Part shown: positions 36,294-48,039 of the stretch, in pieces | Position numbering within the stretch: position 1 is the stretch's first letter | Layout: each line of letters opens with the position of its first letter | NCBI RefSeq assembly: GCF_021278025.1 | Contig: NZ_JAIBHJ010000007.1 | Span: 81,851 to 145,850 of the forward strand | Direction of reading: 5' to 3' | From: Motilimonas sp. E26 | Lineage (GTDB): Bacteria; Pseudomonadota; Gammaproteobacteria; Enterobacterales; CBDFNC01 | Length of the DNA: 64,000 nucleotides | Made by a program: the position numbers and the translations under genes | Notes under the pieces: model-generated | Databases searched by the model: none | Seen by the model: only the letters and a program-made list of their open reading frames with translations | What the model was told of the DNA's origin: nothing

Positions 36294-39200
36294 TCAACTT
36301 GCCATTGCTAAAGCCTTAGCTTGGCTAAAGTCGGTTTTACCTGAGCCTAATTTAGGCACTTGCTCAACCGACATCCAACTTGATGGGATCATCAAGGGGT
36401 TAACGCCCGCCTCTAACATTGCTTTTCGCACTTGGTCTGTGGCTAACTCACCTTCATATAACAAAACAATCTTCTCACCTTTTTTATCATCGCTCAGTGC
36501 AACAGCGACAATTTGCTGATCAGGGGCTAAATGTTTAGCGACCGCTTGCTCAAGCGCTCCCAAGCTGATCATCTCGCCGCCAAGCTTAGCAAAGCGAGAA
36601 TACCTATCGATGATAGTTAAGAAGCCATCTTTATCTATTTGCCCTTTATCTCCCGTCACATACCACCGGGCACCATCGATTTCTTTAATTACTTCTGCCG
36701 TTTTTTCAGGGTTGTTGAGGTAGCCTTGCATTACCTGCGCCCCACCAATTAAGATCATGCCAGCTTCGCCGGTCGGCAACTCGGTAAAATCGTTCGGATC
36801 AACCACTTTAAAGCTAGTGCCCGGTAGTGGCATGCCCACAGTGCCAACTTTGCCACCTATTTGCACTTGCCACCACTGCGTATCCAGTTGATCAGGCAAA
36901 TTCACACTGGCCACAGGGGTCGTTTCCGTGGTGCCGTAGCCTTCTAAAATAGGACGATTGAATTTAAGCTCAAAGCTTTGTCTGACTTCTGGATTAAGGC
37001 GCTCAGCACCTGCCACCACTAAGCGTAATGAACTAAACATTAATGGATGAAGTTTCTTACTCTTACTGTAGATGCGTAAGAATGTAGATGTACCACACAT
37101 AATAGTCGCGTTATGCTTGGCTACCGCCTTACCGATACCAAGGGCATCTGTTGGGTCGCTATGACACACCATAGGCAAGCCTTCAACCAACGGCATAAAT
37201 TGTGTTACCGTCAAACCAAAGGCATGGAATAACGGCAATGACGCCATCACCACGTCACTTTCCTGGGTGTTGAGCACATCTGAAATCTGCTTAAGATTCG
37301 CCATAATATTCTTATGACTTAGCATGACCCCTTTGGGTGTACCTTCACTGCCACTTGAAAACAATATCGCCGCCGTCGCGTCAGGTTTAACCTTTTTGCA
37401 GTACAACAATCGCAACAACCAAGCGGGTAATAAGCGTACTGAGAATAAGGTCAACGCCTTTTCACGCATGCTAATACCTTGGTTTAACTCCTCAAGATAA
37501 ATAACCTCTTTACCTTCAAGCACAGGGGCTAAATCAATGCCACGTTTTTCTAGCTGCTTAATAAAGCGTTTCGCGGTATATATAGTGTTAACATTGGCTT
37601 GTTCAAGCCCCGCAATAAGCGCATCACTACTGGCAGTGTAGTTTAAGTTTACTAAGGTTTTTCCCCGTAATATCGCTGCCATATTAGCCAACACACCACC
37701 GACACTAGTGGGCATTAAAATGCCCACGTTTTGTCCCACTATTTGTTTTTTCATCCGCCTTGACATGCAGATGGCACCTGTTAACGCTTTGTATGCCGAT
37801 ACATCACCGCTGATGCTATCCGTTAATGAGACATTGTTTTTAACCCGCTTTACACTACTCACCCAAGCACTACCAATGCTCGGTAAAGTTTCCACATGGC
37901 TCTGCCAAGAATGCACTGATAAATCAAACACGCGGCGCTTTAGTACATCAACAGGCGTGTCTTTGGCTAATGCAGGGCCGAAAGCCACAATTAAATCACG
38001 AGACATTCCTTGAGCACTGGTGCGCTTTAATCGTTCTGATGACCGGCTAAATTGACTGCCCCATAAACCACGCAAATAAAACGGCACGATTTTAATTTCT
38101 GTTTCACAGGCATCACAAGCCTTCTCATAGCCACGTCTAAACTCGGCTAAGTGGCCGGTGCGACTAATGGTCCCTTCTGGGAATAGAGCCACTGCTTCAC
38201 CTGCATCCAGTAACTCTGCGATAATGTTTAACGACTTAACACTTGAGGCGCCAGATTCAATAGGCACGCAACCCACCAAATCAAAAAACCACTTTAGGTA
38301 CCAGCGTTGATATATTGCCTTAAGCATCACAAACCGAATTGGTCGTGGGCAAGCAATTTGTAAAATCGCCCAGTCAATCCAACTAATATGGTTACCGAGT
38401 AATAGCACACCGCCTTCACTAGGAATATTCTTTATCCCTTGCACTGATATTTCATAGCGGCGCGATAATACCCAACGAACCAAAATACGCAGTAAACTCT
38501 GTGGCAATTTGAAGATAGTATAAGCACCACCAATAACAGCAACCACAGCAGTAAAACCAAGCAAAAACTTGCTGTCTAAACCATAAACCGCAGCCCCTGC
38601 CGTGATCAGTAAAAAGCTGGCCATAGCCACGTTTTGTACCCAGTTATTAACGGCTAACACACGGCCCATTTCATGCTCGCCAGCATGAAATTGAATTAAA
38701 GCATTAAGGGGCACAATGAAAATACCGCCCATGGTGCCCACCACAAGGAAGCAAATGGCTTGGGTTAAAGAAGAGTCCATATATGGCAAGGCCCACAGCG
38801 CGAGTGATATACCCACCGCGCCAATAGGAACTAACCCCGTTTCAATATGAGACTTTGACCAACGACCAGCCAACCATGAACCCAACGCAATACCAACCCC
38901 AGTTGTGGCAATAGTACCTTGGATCACTAAAGTGTTGGTCACATCAAAGTATGCTTTGGCATAAGCGGGAAATGCCGCTAGCAGCATTTGACCAATCGCC
39001 CAAAACATCGCAAGGCCAATAATAGATAAACGGATCACCATGCGATCTTTAAGGGGACTTAAGCTTTGCTTCATTAAACGGCCAGTGCGATAAGCAGACC
39101 AGTCAAAATCGTTGGTTTGGTCGTCAGCTTCAAGTTGTGGCAATCGATACACCATCACCAGCTCAATCAAAGCATTAGCGATTAGAATCCAGCCTAATGG

Positions 39201-39743
39201 CGCAATCAATAGTAATATCGCTTCAGGTGTCACGGCGTCAGGCTGATAAAAAATTTCAAACAGCAACGAATAAACTAACGTACCCGATAAAATTGCAACG
39301 ATAGACACCGCCTGTACCATACCGTTTGCCTGCGCTAAACGCTCTTTACCAAATAAGGGTTTGATATAACCAAACTTGGCCGGCGAATAAAGCGCTGATT
39401 GCACTGCTAATAAGAAGGTCATGGCAAACGCTGGCCAAAATAAGCCGAGATAGTAACAAGCGGTGATACCGATAGTCAGAGCGACAGCGGCCCAAGCGGC
39501 CCCGCGCATCACCTTATTTTTCGGATGGCGATCCGATAAAAAACCCGCGGGTGAAAGCAACAATATAAAAGGAAGCAAAATCAGCGCATTGACAATAGCG
39601 GTCAAAATAATTTGCTGCTGACCATCGTATACCTTAAATACCGTATTTTGAATGATAATTTTATGCCCTAAATCGACAAATGAATTCAAAAAAACAGCAA
39701 ACAAATACGGTAATGCACCGGCATATTGCCAAAGCTTTTTCAT
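36294..39743 (-). CDS. LplT-like transporter fused to Aas (acyltransferase and acyl-ACP synthetase)
   Basis: 1149-residue, three-part protein for lysophospholipid repair. Residues 1-410: major-facilitator transporter like LplT, about twelve hydrophobic segments. Residues 430-630: PlsC-type acyltransferase with NHISWIDW (H-x4-D) and FPEGTISRTG. Residues 640-1149: AMP-binding acyl-ACP synthetase with the phosphate loop LFSSGSEGTPKGV near 800 and YGTTETTP near 950. In E. coli these are two adjacent genes, lplT and aas, so the fusion directly links flipping and re-acylation. Ribosome site AAGGGA five bases before the ATG; own terminator. Confidence 0.92.
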   Translation of the reverse strand: MKKLWQYAGALPYLFAVFLNSFVDLGHKIIIQNTVFKVYDGQQQIILTAIVNALILLPFILLLSPAGFLSDRHPKNKVMRGAAWAAVALTIGITACYYLGLFWPAFAMTFLLAVQSALYSPAKFGYIKPLFGKERLAQANGMVQAVSIVAILSGTLVYSLLFEIFYQPDAVTPEAILLLIAPLGWILIANALIELVMVYRLPQLEADDQTNDFDWSAYRTGRLMKQSLSPLKDRMVIRLSIIGLAMFWAIGQMLLAAFPAYAKAYFDVTNTLVIQGTIATTGVGIALGSWLAGRWSKSHIETGLVPIGAVGISLALWALPYMDSSLTQAICFLVVGTMGGIFIVPLNALIQFHAGEHEMGRVLAVNNWVQNVAMASFLLITAGAAVYGLDSKFLLGFTAVVAVIGGAYTIFKLPQSLLRILVRWVLSRRYEISVQGIKNIPSEGGVLLLGNHISWIDWAILQIACPRPIRFVMLKAIYQRWYLKWFFDLVGCVPIESGASSVKSLNIIAELLDAGEAVALFPEGTISRTGHLAEFRRGYEKACDACETEIKIVPFYLRGLWGSQFSRSSERLKRTSAQGMSRDLIVAFGPALAKDTPVDVLKRRVFDLSVHSWQSHVETLPSIGSAWVSSVKRVKNNVSLTDSISGDVSAYKALTGAICMSRRMKKQIVGQNVGILMPTSVGGVLANMAAILRGKTLVNLNYTASSDALIAGLEQANVNTIYTAKRFIKQLEKRGIDLAPVLEGKEVIYLEELNQGISMREKALTLFSVRLLPAWLLRLLYCKKVKPDATAAILFSSGSEGTPKGVMLSHKNIMANLKQISDVLNTQESDVVMASLPLFHAFGLTVTQFMPLVEGLPMVCHSDPTDALGIGKAVAKHNATIMCGTSTFLRIYSKSKKLHPLMFSSLRLVVAGAERLNPEVRQSFELKFNRPILEGYGTTETTPVASVNLPDQLDTQWWQVQIGGKVGTVGMPLPGTSFKVVDPNDFTELPTGEAGMILIGGAQVMQGYLNNPEKTAEVIKEIDGARWYVTGDKGQIDKDGFLTIIDRYSRFAKLGGEMISLGALEQAVAKHLAPDQQIVAVALSDDKKGEKIVLLYEGELATDQVRKAMLEAGVNPLMIPSSWMSVEQVPKLGSGKTDFSQAKALAMAS

Positions 39744-39987: not shown

Positions 39988-40722
39988 ATGCGTAAACTAT
40001 TTACTTATTCATTATTAAGCTTAGCTATCAGCACTGCTCCTGCCCTTGCTTTTGAAATAAATACCGGTCTCCTTGATGCAGCCAAAGACGCTGGCAAAGC
40101 GATCACCTTATCGGATGCGGAAATTATCGAATTAGGTCGCGAATCGGCAGCGGCTTATGATGAACAAAGCAAAGTATCACCGGCCGATTCAGAGTACAGC
40201 AAGCGTTTGGCTAAACTAACCAAAAAACACTTAAAAGAAGATGGGTTAAATCTGAACTTTAAAGTATATGAAGATTCGAATGTAAATGCTTTTGCCCTAC
40301 CTGATGGCAGCATCCGTGTCTATTCTGGCTTAATGGACATGATGACAGATGAAGAACTGATTGGTGTGATCGGTCATGAAATTGGCCACGTTAAATTACA
40401 GCACACTAAAACGCAGTTCCAAAAAGCTTACGCTGCCAGTGCTGCGCGTAAAGGCGTTGCCTCTCAAGGAGGTGTGGCTGGTAATCTCGCCAAGTCACAG
40501 CTAGTCGATTTAGCCGATGAAGTCATGAAAGCGCAATTTTCTCAATCAGACGAGCTAGGCTCAGATGATTACTCATTTAAGTTTATGAAAAAACATGGCT
40601 ACAAGCGTGAAGCCCTTGTAAGCAGCTTTAGAAAGCTAGCCAGTTTAGGCGATGTCGACAGCATCACTTCAAGCCATCCCGCTCCATCTAAACGTGCAGA
40701 GCGATTAGAGAAACAACTGTAA
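39988..40722 (+). CDS. periplasmic M48 metalloprotease, LoiP/YggG-like
   Basis: 244 residues. Signal peptide at 1-22 (LAISTAPALA then FEIN). The zinc motif HEIGH is at about 130-134 and the third ligand region SDELGSDDYS near 185-195. Strong similarity to E. coli LoiP: ADSEYSKRLAKL, VNAFALPDGSIRVYSGLMDMMTDEE and the C-terminal SHPAPSKRAERL. E. coli LoiP is an outer-membrane lipoprotein, but this protein has no lipobox cysteine, so it is probably soluble in the periplasm. A terminator follows. Confidence 0.92.
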   Translation: MRKLFTYSLLSLAISTAPALAFEINTGLLDAAKDAGKAITLSDAEIIELGRESAAAYDEQSKVSPADSEYSKRLAKLTKKHLKEDGLNLNFKVYEDSNVNAFALPDGSIRVYSGLMDMMTDEELIGVIGHEIGHVKLQHTKTQFQKAYAASAARKGVASQGGVAGNLAKSQLVDLADEVMKAQFSQSDELGSDDYSFKFMKKHGYKREALVSSFRKLASLGDVDSITSSHPAPSKRAERLEKQL

Positions 40723-40984: not shown

Positions 40985-43900
40985 TTAGCCGTCCTTTGAT
41001 TGATTAATACTTGCTGTATTTTCTGCCGTTTTCACTGCAGTCGCCCCGCTCAACCATGCTCCGCCTTGGGTATAGCTAACAAACCACCATTTACCCCATT
41101 TAATTAACTGTGTCGCAATCCATAGCGACCAGAGCAACATCAGCACACGATAAACCCAAATAGGTAAACTATAAACCTGCACTAAAGGTAACGCGCCAGA
41201 TGTCACTTGGTCTTGAAAAAACTTATACAGATAAGCGCTGCTGCCATTACCCACCACTTGCATATCCGGTGTCGCCAATAAGCCGACAGGGATAACCAGC
41301 AGTAAAATAACTAAACAAATAAAAGTCAGTAACAAGAGCCCGACTTGCAACATGTTAAACTGCCACTGCGCCAACTTGTTGGGCACAACAAATTGATTTC
41401 GATAAGCGGTCGCGAAAAACAACAGTGCAAACGGCACTACGCCATAGCTACTCACAGTTGAAAAACCTAGCCCTAATAAAACCCAAGCCATGGTGTTAAC
41501 CGGTAAAGTAAGGCTTAACTTTCTGGCCAGCACAGGGAGGGCTAGCGCACCTAACACAATCACACCTAACATGCCCCAATACAGCATAGAGGCACCTAAT
41601 GCAGGCCCAGAGATAAACAATAACCAACGATCACGAGGTAATTCAAACTCGATATCAATATTGGATACTTTGCCCGGCAGTTGAATGTTTGCACTGGTTT
41701 CAGCCCAACTTAGCACCCTAGGCAACTGAAATTTAACCTCAATTTCTTGCTCACCTGGATGCAATTGCACCACCGCACTGGTAGGGCTATTGATACTTAA
41801 ATTTCGACCGTTATGCGTTAACGCCATAATGTTGGCATCCGCTGCAAGGTCTATCTTATAGTCGATTCCTTGACTGGCCCGAACCTTTAGTTTCAAGGTC
41901 ATGGCTTGGGTATTTTTACCTGCGACATGTAACAATGTGGCTTTTTCAGTGGTGAATACACTGCCACTAACGCCTTCTGGGCGTTGTACCTGAATGTCTA
42001 ACTGCTCACCAGCCCAAGGCTTCCAGAGTGGTTGCAACTGCTCAGCCTGAGCATCAGATTTGACCGCTGCAATACCACTAAAGTTAACATGCCAGAGCGA
42101 AGATGGGATCACACGCCAACGCTCAGAATATGCATTGCTTTTCCCAGCTTGTAAGCTTATCACTGGCGTCGCTGGCAAAGTAGAATGCCACACATAAGTT
42201 CTTTGCCCGTTAGGGATCTGTATCGTCACCGCGCCATCATTACGAACCTCAAGACCTGACAACACTTGCTCGCCCGGTAGTAAAGCAACTGTGAAAGTTG
42301 CCGACTCATTCAGGGGCGATAATTTTTCAACTTGGGTTTCCACTTGCCATTGATTCCCCAAGCTAATTTTCCGATGTACGATGGCATAAGGTTTCACTGG
42401 TAATGGTGTCAAGTTATCATTCGTATCAACGGCCATGGCTTTTTTTGACACCAGGCCAATGTTATTTTTCAACACCACGCCATCTTGTATGCCATCAACC
42501 AACCAATCCGGTGTATAGCTGGTAAAATTATGGATAGCTAAAGGTAAACTAATCGCAATTTGATCATTTAAAATAGGCCCTTGCAGCACTACCTGATGTT
42601 GTCCTTTTGCGACATAGATAAACGGGTTACCTTTGTCTTTACGTAAGATAGCTGATTGATTATCAAGACTAATGGAATCGGCTTGCCAAGTATTACCCGC
42701 GCTAGGTAGCGCAATTGCTACATCAACACTTGCCACTACATTAAACGACAAACGTAATTGCCCTTCACGGATTTCTAAATGGCCTTGGTCGAGTGACACA
42801 CAATGAGGTAAACAATCTGGCGCAGCCAATAATCTTGCCTCATATTCCGTCAGTAAATACTCAGGTGGGAAATCTTGCGCTTGACTTGGCTCACTGATTA
42901 ACGTGCCAGTGCTTGCTAAGGCAATAAGCAAGCCTATCGAAGCCATTGAACTGGTATTTTTAGAAGTCTGGCTTGTCCCCTTTGTGCCGGCATCTAGCGA
43001 TGATTTAAAGCGGCCCACTTGCACTAATTTCATCACTGTCACTAACGCCATCGCACTTAATAATAAGACATTTAACACTCGCCATAGGGCCGTCATCCAA
43101 GGGGATGAATAAATGACATCAATGCTCTGCGTGGCCAAGACAACACCTGTCGCATTAATATAGAAGCGATTCCATTGCCAAGTCGGTACTCCTGGCCCAG
43201 TTTGTACGCGATCATTTTCTCCCACTTGATAAGGAGATAGCTCTTTAACGCCAGCATAACTGTCAGGACGCCCACTGCGTTGCAGCTTTTTCAAATCTTG
43301 ACTGCTACTTTGCTGCTCTTTTATCGCCAACGGACTAGCACTTTTTTGGGATAATTCGGCCAAGGGATCAATTTCATCAAAACTATTCTCAACTGCAGAC
43401 TCAAGCTCAAGATGGGTGTTCATCGCATAATGGCTAATACCAGGCTTCTCTAAACTGGGGTACAGCGCCAAACGCAGTGATGACACACTAAATACCACTA
43501 TGCTAAGCACTAAAATAAACACAGGGAACAAGGCAAATCGCGACACCCACACTTTGTACTTTCCGATGGGCAGTGAGGCCAAACCAATCAATAACAACAA
43601 TAGGGCCCACAACAAATTGGGCGCTTTATCTTCATGAAAACTTAATATCAACGTTACGGCCATCAGCATAGCCCCTTTCACGCCCAATAACTTATTCGCT
43701 ACCGCAACCAAAATCATCAACCAAAAGATATCCCATAAGTTCCACTGTTGGATCCAAGTGCCTGCTACACCGTCGACACCACTGGCATGAAGTGCTCGCC
43801 AACCCGGTGGTAAATGAATGCTGGCACTGAAATCTGTCACGTCATTTTGCCAACCCACCGCATTAAAATGACGAATATCGTTAAGAGAACTTACCGCTTC

Positions 43901-45136
43901 AAGGTTGATTTGTGGACTGCGTATCTCTACCCCTTGCTGACCGTCAAGCTCTGTTATTAACACTGCTTGCTCATTAACTAACGCACGACCAGCCTGCATT
44001 TCACTATCAGCATTGAGACGCCAGCCTTGATTCATTTCGCCACGAACTAAGTCTTTAACCACAGCACCTTGACCATTAAATGCCAGCCAAATTTCGCGTC
44101 GAATATTGATGGTATTGCTATGTCCCTTACTGGCCTGTGATGTTTTGCTAGTAAGTTGCAAGGCTTGATTAGCCTGTAGCCGATAAGTGGGTAAATTTTT
44201 CCATTGTGCGGGAATATCAACTAAAGACGTATCAACACTTGTTGCACCGGTTAGGGTAACCTCACGCCAATGGGGATCACTAGCGAAACTAATGTATTCA
44301 TGTTCAGGCCAAGCCGTAGATAACTTATTGGTTTGAAATGAGGTGATATTACCAACCACACGACTTTGCAATTTTATTTCATGGACCCCGGGCTTAACTT
44401 GCACCCTTAACATGCCATTCTCTTCTAATCGAGCGGGTAGGTTTGACTCGAGTTGAAGCGTTTTAATGTTATCCCATGAGACCTGGCCGATTTCTACTTC
44501 ACGCGACTTACCACTAACAAACAGTTTAATCTGCGTTGTTAAGCCCATCGGCACATCATCGCTTAACATGCGATACACTTCTACGCGCAAGGTATCTTTA
44601 GCACTCTCCGTCCCTGTCAGTTTTTGTGCAAAAATCAGTTGGTTGTTGTTAATGGTGGTGGGAAACCGCTGATCATTTTTGACAATATTCAGCAAAGCTA
44701 AATCATCTGGTAATGCTAGGCTTGTCGGCAAACGTGACCAAAGGTACGTTCCGGTGATCAGGTGACGCCCTTTGCTTAATTGCACATAGGGCTTACCTCC
44801 CTTATCAAGAACCAACGCGGGTTGTTGATTGACCAAGAGTTGTGTTGGCCAATGAGATTGATTGCCTGGTAAACGTACCTCACTCGCGCGCGAAAATACT
44901 TCCACTTGCATCTCAAAACGCATCCCCTCGCTTATTAATTCACCTTTAAATTGTGCAGGCCAACTACAGACTCGTTGTTTGCTAGCCGACATCAACCAGG
45001 GACAGTCAAGCTCAGGATGCCGCTCTTCTACCCATTGTTGCCAGCTTGGTGAAAGGGCAGGATCATCGGCAGCTTGGGCGAGATTAAACAAACAACTGCA
45101 TAAGATGAATATAAGAAACAAGCGAGTTAATCGCAT
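40985..45136 (-). CDS. 1383-residue membrane protein of unknown function, internally duplicated
   Basis: Not recognised. Signal peptide at 1-22 (ends AQA-ADD). Residues 23-460 look periplasmic and strand-rich; hydrophobic helices follow at about 465-555. A soluble part rich in Ser/Gln (570-675), a helix near 680-705, and a second signal-like hydrophobic stretch near 732-754 ending SQAQD. A second periplasmic region (755-1165) repeats the first: compare DCPWLMSASKQRVC (44-57) with DCLPHCVSLDQ (774-784), and LDKGGKPYVQLSKGRHLITG (110-129) with LRKDKGNPFIYVAKGQHQVV (831-850). Further helices at about 1170-1345. AAGGA lies seven bases before the ATG. Monocistronic. Confidence 0.85.
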   Translation of the reverse strand: MRLTRLFLIFILCSCLFNLAQAADDPALSPSWQQWVEERHPELDCPWLMSASKQRVCSWPAQFKGELISEGMRFEMQVEVFSRASEVRLPGNQSHWPTQLLVNQQPALVLDKGGKPYVQLSKGRHLITGTYLWSRLPTSLALPDDLALLNIVKNDQRFPTTINNNQLIFAQKLTGTESAKDTLRVEVYRMLSDDVPMGLTTQIKLFVSGKSREVEIGQVSWDNIKTLQLESNLPARLEENGMLRVQVKPGVHEIKLQSRVVGNITSFQTNKLSTAWPEHEYISFASDPHWREVTLTGATSVDTSLVDIPAQWKNLPTYRLQANQALQLTSKTSQASKGHSNTINIRREIWLAFNGQGAVVKDLVRGEMNQGWRLNADSEMQAGRALVNEQAVLITELDGQQGVEIRSPQINLEAVSSLNDIRHFNAVGWQNDVTDFSASIHLPPGWRALHASGVDGVAGTWIQQWNLWDIFWLMILVAVANKLLGVKGAMLMAVTLILSFHEDKAPNLLWALLLLLIGLASLPIGKYKVWVSRFALFPVFILVLSIVVFSVSSLRLALYPSLEKPGISHYAMNTHLELESAVENSFDEIDPLAELSQKSASPLAIKEQQSSSQDLKKLQRSGRPDSYAGVKELSPYQVGENDRVQTGPGVPTWQWNRFYINATGVVLATQSIDVIYSSPWMTALWRVLNVLLLSAMALVTVMKLVQVGRFKSSLDAGTKGTSQTSKNTSSMASIGLLIALASTGTLISEPSQAQDFPPEYLLTEYEARLLAAPDCLPHCVSLDQGHLEIREGQLRLSFNVVASVDVAIALPSAGNTWQADSISLDNQSAILRKDKGNPFIYVAKGQHQVVLQGPILNDQIAISLPLAIHNFTSYTPDWLVDGIQDGVVLKNNIGLVSKKAMAVDTNDNLTPLPVKPYAIVHRKISLGNQWQVETQVEKLSPLNESATFTVALLPGEQVLSGLEVRNDGAVTIQIPNGQRTYVWHSTLPATPVISLQAGKSNAYSERWRVIPSSLWHVNFSGIAAVKSDAQAEQLQPLWKPWAGEQLDIQVQRPEGVSGSVFTTEKATLLHVAGKNTQAMTLKLKVRASQGIDYKIDLAADANIMALTHNGRNLSINSPTSAVVQLHPGEQEIEVKFQLPRVLSWAETSANIQLPGKVSNIDIEFELPRDRWLLFISGPALGASMLYWGMLGVIVLGALALPVLARKLSLTLPVNTMAWVLLGLGFSTVSSYGVVPFALLFFATAYRNQFVVPNKLAQWQFNMLQVGLLLLTFICLVILLLVIPVGLLATPDMQVVGNGSSAYLYKFFQDQVTSGALPLVQVYSLPIWVYRVLMLLWSLWIATQLIKWGKWWFVSYTQGGAWLSGATAVKTAENTASINQSKDG

Positions 45137-45382: not shown

Positions 45383-45916
45383 GTGAAAAACGTGGGCTTT
45401 GGCTGCAGCAATTTTAGTCTGGCAGTATATATCGAAAACAAACCTGCTATGGTGGCTTATGAAAACTTGGATGTGATAAAGCCATTAAGCACTGGTGAGA
45501 TACAACATATTGGCTTGGAATGTGGAAACGGTTGGCGCAAGGTGTTTAATGTATACAGTAAACTGTTATATGCCCTTGATCTAGACTGGTTTAAGTTTGC
45601 TTGTGCCGCCCCCTCTTGGCAAGCATACCGAGATCAACATTTGCTGCAACAAGGCAGTGCTACCGCACTATTATTTAGCCCACCAGTAATAAACCATGAG
45701 AGCCAAGCCTTACACATTATTAGTGGTAAAACCTATGCCAACAAATTGATCCTCGCTGGTAAAATCAACTCCGGTCTAATTTGGCTTGATGAGCAATTTG
45801 CCATTGATGTAAAAAGCAGACTAATTGTCTGCCCTTACTTTGATTACAGACAACTGTCTAATGAAAAAATTGACCGTGTAGCAGATTACTTAATTCAGCT
45901 GGTGAAAACCAAATAA
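45383..45916 (+). CDS. conserved hypothetical protein, possibly DUF6942
   Basis: 177-residue soluble protein with GTG start and AAGG eight bases upstream. No signal peptide or membrane segment. Notable: a C-GNGWRKVFNVY segment near residues 47-58, a tryptophan-rich stretch (FACAAPSWQAYRDQHLL, about 73-89) and ALLFSPPVINHES near 95-107, which recall a family of marine gammaproteobacterial unknowns that I associate, without certainty, with DUF6942. Convergent with the next small gene, six bases apart. Function unknown. Confidence 0.75.
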   Translation: MKNVGFGCSNFSLAVYIENKPAMVAYENLDVIKPLSTGEIQHIGLECGNGWRKVFNVYSKLLYALDLDWFKFACAAPSWQAYRDQHLLQQGSATALLFSPPVINHESQALHIISGKTYANKLILAGKINSGLIWLDEQFAIDVKSRLIVCPYFDYRQLSNEKIDRVADYLIQLVKTK

Positions 45917-46491: not shown

Positions 46492-48039
46492 TTAAACGCT
46501 AGCAGTGTGCTTACTGTGTAGCTTAATGTTGATCATACGTAACGTGGCGCCAATACCGGCCAAAACTTGGTTAGTGTTAACCCCGCGAGTACGTAATACC
46601 TTACCATCATCACGCCATGTCACAATACACTCGGTTAATGCACTGGTTTGCCCACCGGGCGGAATACGCAGCTCGTAATCAAGCAATTCAGGAAAATCAA
46701 ACTGCTCTTCTTCATTCAGCACTTGTTTCATCGCACTGATAAAGGCATCAAAGCCACCGTTACCACTGCCTGCTGATTTACGAATGCTGCCATTAACCGA
46801 CACGCGGATACTGACAACAGACTCTAAATCCATCCCCGAGGTGATCGAGCAATTAAGCAATTGAACGTGGTTATAATCTTTACGCTCGAGCAAATCAGCC
46901 ACTAAAAACGGTAAATCTTCAGGTGTGATACTGGCCTTTTGATCGCCCAGTTTAACAATACGTTTGAGTAGCATGCGTTGCTGTTCGTCGCTGAGCTCAA
47001 TGTCCATGGCTTCTAGGTTTTTCGCCAGCGACGCTTTGCCGCTCATTTTACCCAGCGCATAGCTGCGCTCACGGTTAAAGCGTTCAGGAGTTAAGGCTGA
47101 CATATACAAGCCGCCTTTTTTATCGCCATCAGCGTGAATACCACTGGTTTGAGTAAACACATCAGCACCAACAATCGGAGTATTATCTGCTATTCGCTTA
47201 CCAGAAAAATTTTCCACTAACTGGCTAATATGATGCATTTGACTTTCATCAATGCCCACTTCTAAACCCAGCTTATCTTTTAACACCACCGCCACTTCAG
47301 CAAGAGAAGCATTACCGGCACGCTCACCTAAACAGTTTACGGTACAATGAATAGAGCTAATGCCCGCTTTAACCGCAAACATCGCATTGGCGGTGGCTAA
47401 GCCGTAATCATTATGAGGATGGAAATCAAACTTAGTGTCAGGGAAACGAGTTAACATATCTGACAGGCTATCGAATACCTCATCAGGTGACATCACACCT
47501 AAAGTGTCAGGCAGCATGAAATGCTCAATGCCACTGTCAACTAACTTTGCCACCATATCATAGACATACTGGGGGCTATCTTTATAACCGTTAGACCAAT
47601 CTTCGAGATAAATATTCACCCGTAAGCCTTGGCTTAAGGCATAGTCAACGGTTTGTTTAATATCGGCAACATGCTGATCAAGGGATTTCTTAAGCTGCTC
47701 GCTGCAATGCTTTAAACTGCCTTTAGCAAGCAAGTTCAGTACCTGTCCACCCGTCTCTTTGATCCAATCAACACTTAAGGTATGGTCAACAAAGCCTAAT
47801 ACCTCAATACGTTCAACTAAACCTTCAGCCGTTGCCCATTCGTTGAGCTTCTTAACCGCTTCTTTTTCACCCTCTGATACACGAGCCGAGGCAACTTCAA
47901 GGCGGTCAATCTTAAGCTTTTGTAACAGCGCTTTGGCTATACTGACTTTTTCAGTTGGAGGAAAAGACACCGACTGCGTCTGTTCACCATCACGAAGGGT
48001 TGTGTCCATTAAAAGCACACGGCGGTTTAATTGTCCCAT
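46492..48039 (-). CDS. 2-isopropylmalate/citramalate synthase-type enzyme with LeuA regulatory domain
   Basis: 515-residue acyl-CoA:2-oxoacid condensing enzyme. Catalytic TIM-barrel motifs: LMDTTLRDGEQTQ (10-22), the metal HxH in FHPHNDYGLA (about 205-214), and NCLGERAGNASL (about 234-245). A LeuA-type regulatory domain occupies about 385-515 (GGQTSALTE near 472). The sequence is closer to the Bacteroidetes-type synthases next to leuCD than to canonical E. coli LeuA. It could use 2-oxoisovalerate (leucine route) or pyruvate (citramalate route to isoleucine); LeuCD serves both. Ribosome site AAGGA eight bases upstream. Confidence 0.85.
   Translation of the reverse strand: MGQLNRRVLLMDTTLRDGEQTQSVSFPPTEKVSIAKALLQKLKIDRLEVASARVSEGEKEAVKKLNEWATAEGLVERIEVLGFVDHTLSVDWIKETGGQVLNLLAKGSLKHCSEQLKKSLDQHVADIKQTVDYALSQGLRVNIYLEDWSNGYKDSPQYVYDMVAKLVDSGIEHFMLPDTLGVMSPDEVFDSLSDMLTRFPDTKFDFHPHNDYGLATANAMFAVKAGISSIHCTVNCLGERAGNASLAEVAVVLKDKLGLEVGIDESQMHHISQLVENFSGKRIADNTPIVGADVFTQTSGIHADGDKKGGLYMSALTPERFNRERSYALGKMSGKASLAKNLEAMDIELSDEQQRMLLKRIVKLGDQKASITPEDLPFLVADLLERKDYNHVQLLNCSITSGMDLESVVSIRVSVNGSIRKSAGSGNGGFDAFISAMKQVLNEEEQFDFPELLDYELRIPPGGQTSALTECIVTWRDDGKVLRTRGVNTNQVLAGIGATLRMINIKLHSKHTASV

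Follow-up and report, generated by a model that had tools for sequence, protein, structure and literature searches.

A duplicated inner-membrane protein with a conserved internal signal-peptide-like segment represents an undescribed bacterial family

In the window, which is the whole 64,000-nucleotide stretch of Motilimonas sp. E26 DNA that was analysed, an open reading frame on the minus strand (40985-45136) encodes a 1383-residue precursor. The sequence and ORF check bore out the coordinates, strand and length that an earlier reading of the sequence alone (the sequence-only reading) had given, and the gene was further supported by homologue searches. It stands alone between a convergent gene for a LoiP-type M48 protease and a divergent DUF6942 gene (45383-45916, plus strand). 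The convergent gene (39988-40722, plus strand) encodes a metalloprotease near LoiP that scored under the NCBIfam cut-off, and in the sister species (locus L031) an ORF of equal size occupies its position. Farther out are a gene for a 1149-aa fusion of an MFS transporter, an acyltransferase and an acyl-ACP synthetase of the PRK08633 type (36294-39743, minus strand) and one for a LeuA-like enzyme (46492-48039, minus strand), whose best model, matched under that model's own cut-off, is the Leptospira-type (R)-citramalate synthase, the substrate being uncertain. Clustering of the ORFs around 100 family loci revealed no operon partner, as no neighbour recurred beyond a lineage, common families aside. 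The neighbours that did recur were lineage-specific: in the Zobellella/Oceanimonas group, downstream genes that look like a transporter set, and in Desulfobulbaceae, conserved blocks. With a stand-alone gene and no cross-lineage neighbour in 100 loci, the proposal in the sequence-only reading that the protein is a candidate for an undescribed envelope system gained no support.

The 1383-residue protein matched no family in Pfam, NCBIfam, PADLOC, PHROGs or PDB sequences, as the sequence-only reading had supposed, and no full-length match to a characterised family was found. Aligned members of the family were likewise without a family in Pfam, NCBIfam and PDB, and PDB sequence searches with whole- and half-length profiles returned nothing meaningful. 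Weak Pfam matches (DUF5462 and others) were rejected, being under the curated cut-off and varying between members. The protein is a member of a real, conserved and undescribed inner-membrane family, of which a GTDB genome scan confirmed 364 loci. Among the best 80 of these 364 are loci from Motilimonas, Psychromonas, Zobellella, Methylobacter and Thiomargarita, as well as Desulfobulbaceae, Nitrospira and Magnetococcales. The distribution is patchy and extends to Desulfobacterota and Nitrospirota: carriers make up 27 of 295 genomes of the source's order (including two of four in its own genus), 28 of 398 genomes of its phylum and 20 of 297 genomes of the phylum of one Desulfobulbaceae carrier. 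Members are 1313-1523 residues long (100 loci) and, fragments aside, occur as a single copy per genome in which the two halves share one reading frame. Partial matches came mainly from short draft contigs; no true relative of half length came to light, and among the members seen none was split over two separate genes. A betaproteobacterial copy lies on the 738-kb megaplasmid pAZKH of Azoarcus sp. KH32C (locus L134, 7884-11978), where it shares 4 bases with a gene for an isoaspartyl peptidase; a mobilizable replicon can thus carry the family.

The precursor can be divided into two halves of similar layout (all features that follow are on the minus strand). The first begins with an N-terminal signal peptide (residues 1-22, 45071-45136), assigned from the sequence, in which AQA precedes residue 23, and from an N-terminal motif test in homologues. 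A cysteine pair, C45/C57 (44966-45004), likely forms a disulfide. Beta domains N1 (residues 56-173, 44618-44971) and N2 (residues 178-335, 44132-44605) follow, delimited by the AlphaFold2 model and by profile comparison, and then the first part of a third beta domain, N3 (residues 336-463, 43748-44131), which by model and structure comparison resembles the N-terminal domain of M1 aminopeptidases. N3 is interrupted by a transmembrane bundle (residues 467-558, 43463-43738), recognised by hydropathy, model and charge pattern, and would be completed by a hairpin (residues 653-679, 43100-43180) that holds a conserved QTGPGxPxWxW motif. The half ends in a fifth transmembrane helix (residues 679-708, 43013-43102; hydropathy and model), after which comes a putative internal signal peptide (residues 726-753, 42878-42961).

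The second half repeats this order. It opens with the cysteine pair C775/C779 (42800-42814), and the pairs noted in the sequence-only reading are indeed conserved in both halves, C775 and C779 being invariant in homologues and C45 and C57 invariant or at least 90% conserved. The repeated L-x-K-G-x-P-Y-V motif also exists in both, if not letter by letter (LDKGGKPYVQLSKGRH vs LRKDKGNPFIYVAKGQH). Beta domains C1 (residues 778-912, 42401-42805) and C2 (residues 915-1056, 41969-42394), placed by model and hhalign, lead to the first part of C3 (residues 1057-1185, 41582-41968), which is M1 N-terminal-domain-like by structure comparison and by a marginal profile match. Its inserted transmembrane bundle (residues 1186-1287, 41276-41581; hydropathy, model and charge pattern) is followed by the GNGS motif, the completing hairpin (residues 1300-1327, 41156-41239) and a fifth helix (residues 1326-1356, 41069-41161; hydropathy and model). 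Overall, hydropathy placed hydrophobic segments at about residues 473-552, 687-705, 729-747, 1185-1283 and 1324-1342.

Self-alignment showed the two halves to be related, weakly by single-sequence blastp (E 1.8e-4, 21% identity) and strongly by profile-profile comparison. Based on 101 homologues, hhalign gave 98.7% (E 2.7e-16) over 399 columns at 17% identity, pairing residues 55-481 with 777-1201, the register named in the sequence-only reading for its two related modules. By domain, the values were 98.1% for N1-C1, 95.1% for N2-C2 and a weak 36.6% for N3-C3, with reversed-profile controls at or below 23%, and profile comparison found no likeness in sequence between the transmembrane bundles of the two halves. 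Likeness to C3 was also found for N1 (90.3%) and C1 (93.8%); inside each half, the beta domains thus seem to be repeats of one another too. A tree built from 202 half-sequences resolved N halves and C halves into fully separate clades joined by a long branch with support 1.0, and this complete split points to one ancient duplication as the origin of both halves.

AlphaFold2 models of the halves (pLDDT 85 and 89) contain beta domains in both, and the two resemble the same solved folds, in agreement with the structural similarity between halves that the sequence-only reading implied. Ost1/ribophorin I was the top Foldseek match for the C half (E 3.2e-9) and the N half (E 2.5e-6), and Ost1 was the top VIA match for both (Z 14.8 and 11.8), the structural alignment in the first half beginning at N2. 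The tandem Ost1 alignments are loose, with an rmsd of 11-31 over 270-315 residues of predicted models, and thus show domain order rather than superposition. Closer agreement was obtained with the N-terminal domain of M1 aminopeptidases, onto which the model of C3 was placed with Z 13.6 and rmsd 2.9 over 150 residues and that of N3 with Z about 11 and rmsd about 3.1. The C3 profile matched M1 N-terminal domains marginally (37.6%, E 3.4e-4; reversed control 0.4%), in roughly the same register as the structural match. These comparisons argue that the membrane-proximal beta domain of each half has an M1-aminopeptidase N-terminal-domain fold. The HExxH zinc site, however, is present in 0 of 101 homologues, which excludes identity as an M1-type peptidase.

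In both halves, the alignment to the M1 N-terminal domain spans the transmembrane bundle (residues 313-654 of the first model and 335-602 of the second). Since the hairpin after the bundle completes N3 or C3, the bundle would be an insertion with an even number of membrane crossings. The charge pattern fits four crossings and a fifth helix: the K+R fraction is 0.19-0.25 in most predicted cytoplasmic loops and 0.00-0.07 outside, the exception, at 0.06, being a single loop of the first half. There, the modelling resolves fewer distinct helices than this pattern implies; the N3 bundle probably makes four passes where the model draws three helices.

The mid-protein stretch at about residues 726-753 carries S-Q-A at 751-753 and corresponds to the second signal-peptide-like segment, ending SQAQD, that the sequence-only reading had picked out. 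Its type is conserved across the family. In most homologues, the stretch ahead of residue 754 starts with basic residues, continues in a short hydrophobic core and closes with an A-x-A-like motif, with P/S at -6 and E/D/Q at +1, and then comes a conserved proline. The predicted cytoplasmic stretch ahead of it has a K+R fraction of 0.20, and several members have long low-complexity linkers immediately after the putative cut site. Of 101 homologues, 92 have an [AVST]xA motif behind the internal hydrophobic core (91%; strict AxA, 50%), compared with 72% at the N-terminal signal peptide (strict AxA, 40%) and 5-37% behind eight other transmembrane segments of the same proteins (strict AxA, 0-18%). 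The segment before residue 754 is therefore likely a signal peptidase I site with a putative cut after A753, and the likeliest reading of these sequence statistics is a precursor that signal peptidase I divides into two chains. As for whether the protein arose by fusion of secreted modules or undergoes internal processing, alternatives that the sequence-only reading had left side by side, the modules appear to have been joined through ancient duplication and processing is now favoured as well. A literature search on internal signal peptides and on the M1-N likeness of ribophorin I yielded no usable paper.

The same segment could instead be an ordinary transmembrane anchor between tandem modules of an uncut polypeptide that acts as a membrane scaffold or sensor. 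Both halves do stay in one frame in homologues, and duplicated modules joined in tandem by a linker helix are common among proteins. A plain anchor, however, has no need of a signal peptidase I signature, and here that signature is found in 91% of members, exceeding its frequency at the N-terminal signal peptides. We regard an uncut protein as possible, if rather unlikely.

The explanation we prefer, to which we give about an even chance, is an internally cut inner-membrane precursor that yields two paired chains forming a non-catalytic periplasmic scaffold. The duplicated architecture on which it builds is well supported. The precursor would be exported in diderm bacteria through Sec by its N-terminal signal peptide and would place three beta domains of the first half in the periplasm, the third split by the transmembrane bundle; the half would end in a helix whose tail is cytoplasmic. 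The internal signal peptide would then restart export, and cleavage by signal peptidase I after A753 would release chain A (about residues 23-753) and chain B (residues 754-1383). As two copies of one ancient module, the chains might sit as a pseudo-symmetric pair, with periplasmic domains whose order resembles that in the luminal portion of Ost1/ribophorin I. We infer the cleavage and the pairing from these features. The likeliest role would be that of a non-catalytic scaffold at the inner membrane, holding a polypeptide or a partner enzyme, a function at which we can only guess. Several observations count against the two-chain scaffold. The signal-peptide-like segment may escape cutting and serve as a membrane anchor; among the members seen, none is encoded on two separate genes, though cleavage would permit it; the N3-C3 profile similarity is weak and the bundles are unlike in sequence; the Ost1 tandem likeness perhaps reflects domain order and not a common ancestor; and neighbourhood and co-occurrence tests indicate no pathway.

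The co-occurrence tests also bear on whether the protein does in bacteria what ribophorin I (Ost1) does in eukaryotes, helping a periplasmic protein glycosyltransferase. That Ost1 is the best structural match of both halves, with tandem beta domains and then a helix in each case, speaks for such a role. Against it, Pfam Ribophorin_I (PF04597) had no match among 22 members even with the E limit set at 1, STT3 over the cut-off was found in 0 of 295 genomes of the source's order, and a PglL-type ligase was present in 15 of 27 carriers and 14 of 44 non-carriers, giving p 0.08 uncorrected for kinship and no link. We consider this role improbable. Neither exosortase, which 10 of the 27 carriers possess (p 0.16), nor rhombosortase, absent over the cut-off from the f25 carriers, tracks the family, so that the constant presence of a sortase expected of an exosortase or rhombosortase sorting system is not observed.

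We see similarly little prospect that the protein is a transporter or lipid-handling membrane protein in which the transmembrane bundles do the work and the beta domains bind. The several transmembrane segments per half and the conserved membrane-near motifs QTGPGxPxWxW and GNGS would suit such an activity, against which stand the differing bundle sequences of the two halves and the finding that no transporter family scored meaningfully.

The family is thus widespread and unnamed, with an unusual, testable architecture. Its conserved internal signal peptide implies that one gene may give rise to two membrane proteins that act as partners. Unusual too is the interruption of an M1-N-like domain by a transmembrane bundle. 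A bolder version of the scaffold, for which we see just an outside chance, is an ancient bacterial relative of Ost1/ribophorin I that became a duplicated, signal-peptidase-processed, two-chain periplasmic protein-maturation scaffold in diderms. If the likeness to Ost1 did reflect descent, an OST1-type module would exist in bacteria, compared with the range given in a published survey, in which OST1 was confined to eukaryotes and to TACK and Asgard archaea (PMC11417166).

Among named systems, Ost1 has two similar beta-rich luminal domains and a single helix and binds glycosylated peptides (PMC7226087); ribophorin I/Ost1 has a single transmembrane helix, with a cytosolic helix bundle in the human and Asgard forms (PMC11417166). 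Like Ost1/ribophorin I (8agb_E, 8pn9_E), the family has a signal peptide, appears to be non-catalytic and, in loosely superposed predicted models, carries M1-N-like beta domains in tandem on the outer side, with a transmembrane helix behind them. Unlike Ost1, it has three beta domains per half, two halves, an internal signal peptide, a transmembrane bundle inside the last domain and several transmembrane segments per half, and it is without the cytosolic helix bundle, a sequence match or STT3 in the tested genomes. The membrane-proximal beta domain resembles that of M1 aminopeptidases and LTA4 hydrolase (PF17900; 4qhp, 1z1w) at an rmsd of about 3 over 140-150 residues, but the family lacks their catalytic domain along with HExxH, and is membrane-anchored with a transmembrane insertion. 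CreD (PF06123) likewise combines a big periplasmic part with a C-terminal inner-membrane bundle, and its membrane motif looks alike by eye. The homology this suggested was rejected, as hhalign gave a probability below 1% for every part, and a separate CreD is encoded in the same genome. A further parallel is provided by Bradyrhizobium FbcH (cytochrome b/c1), a precursor for which internal cutting by signal peptidase has been demonstrated. The proteins are unrelated and in our family the cut is predicted from sequence, but the likely plan is that of FbcH: one gene, an internal signal peptide and two membrane products.
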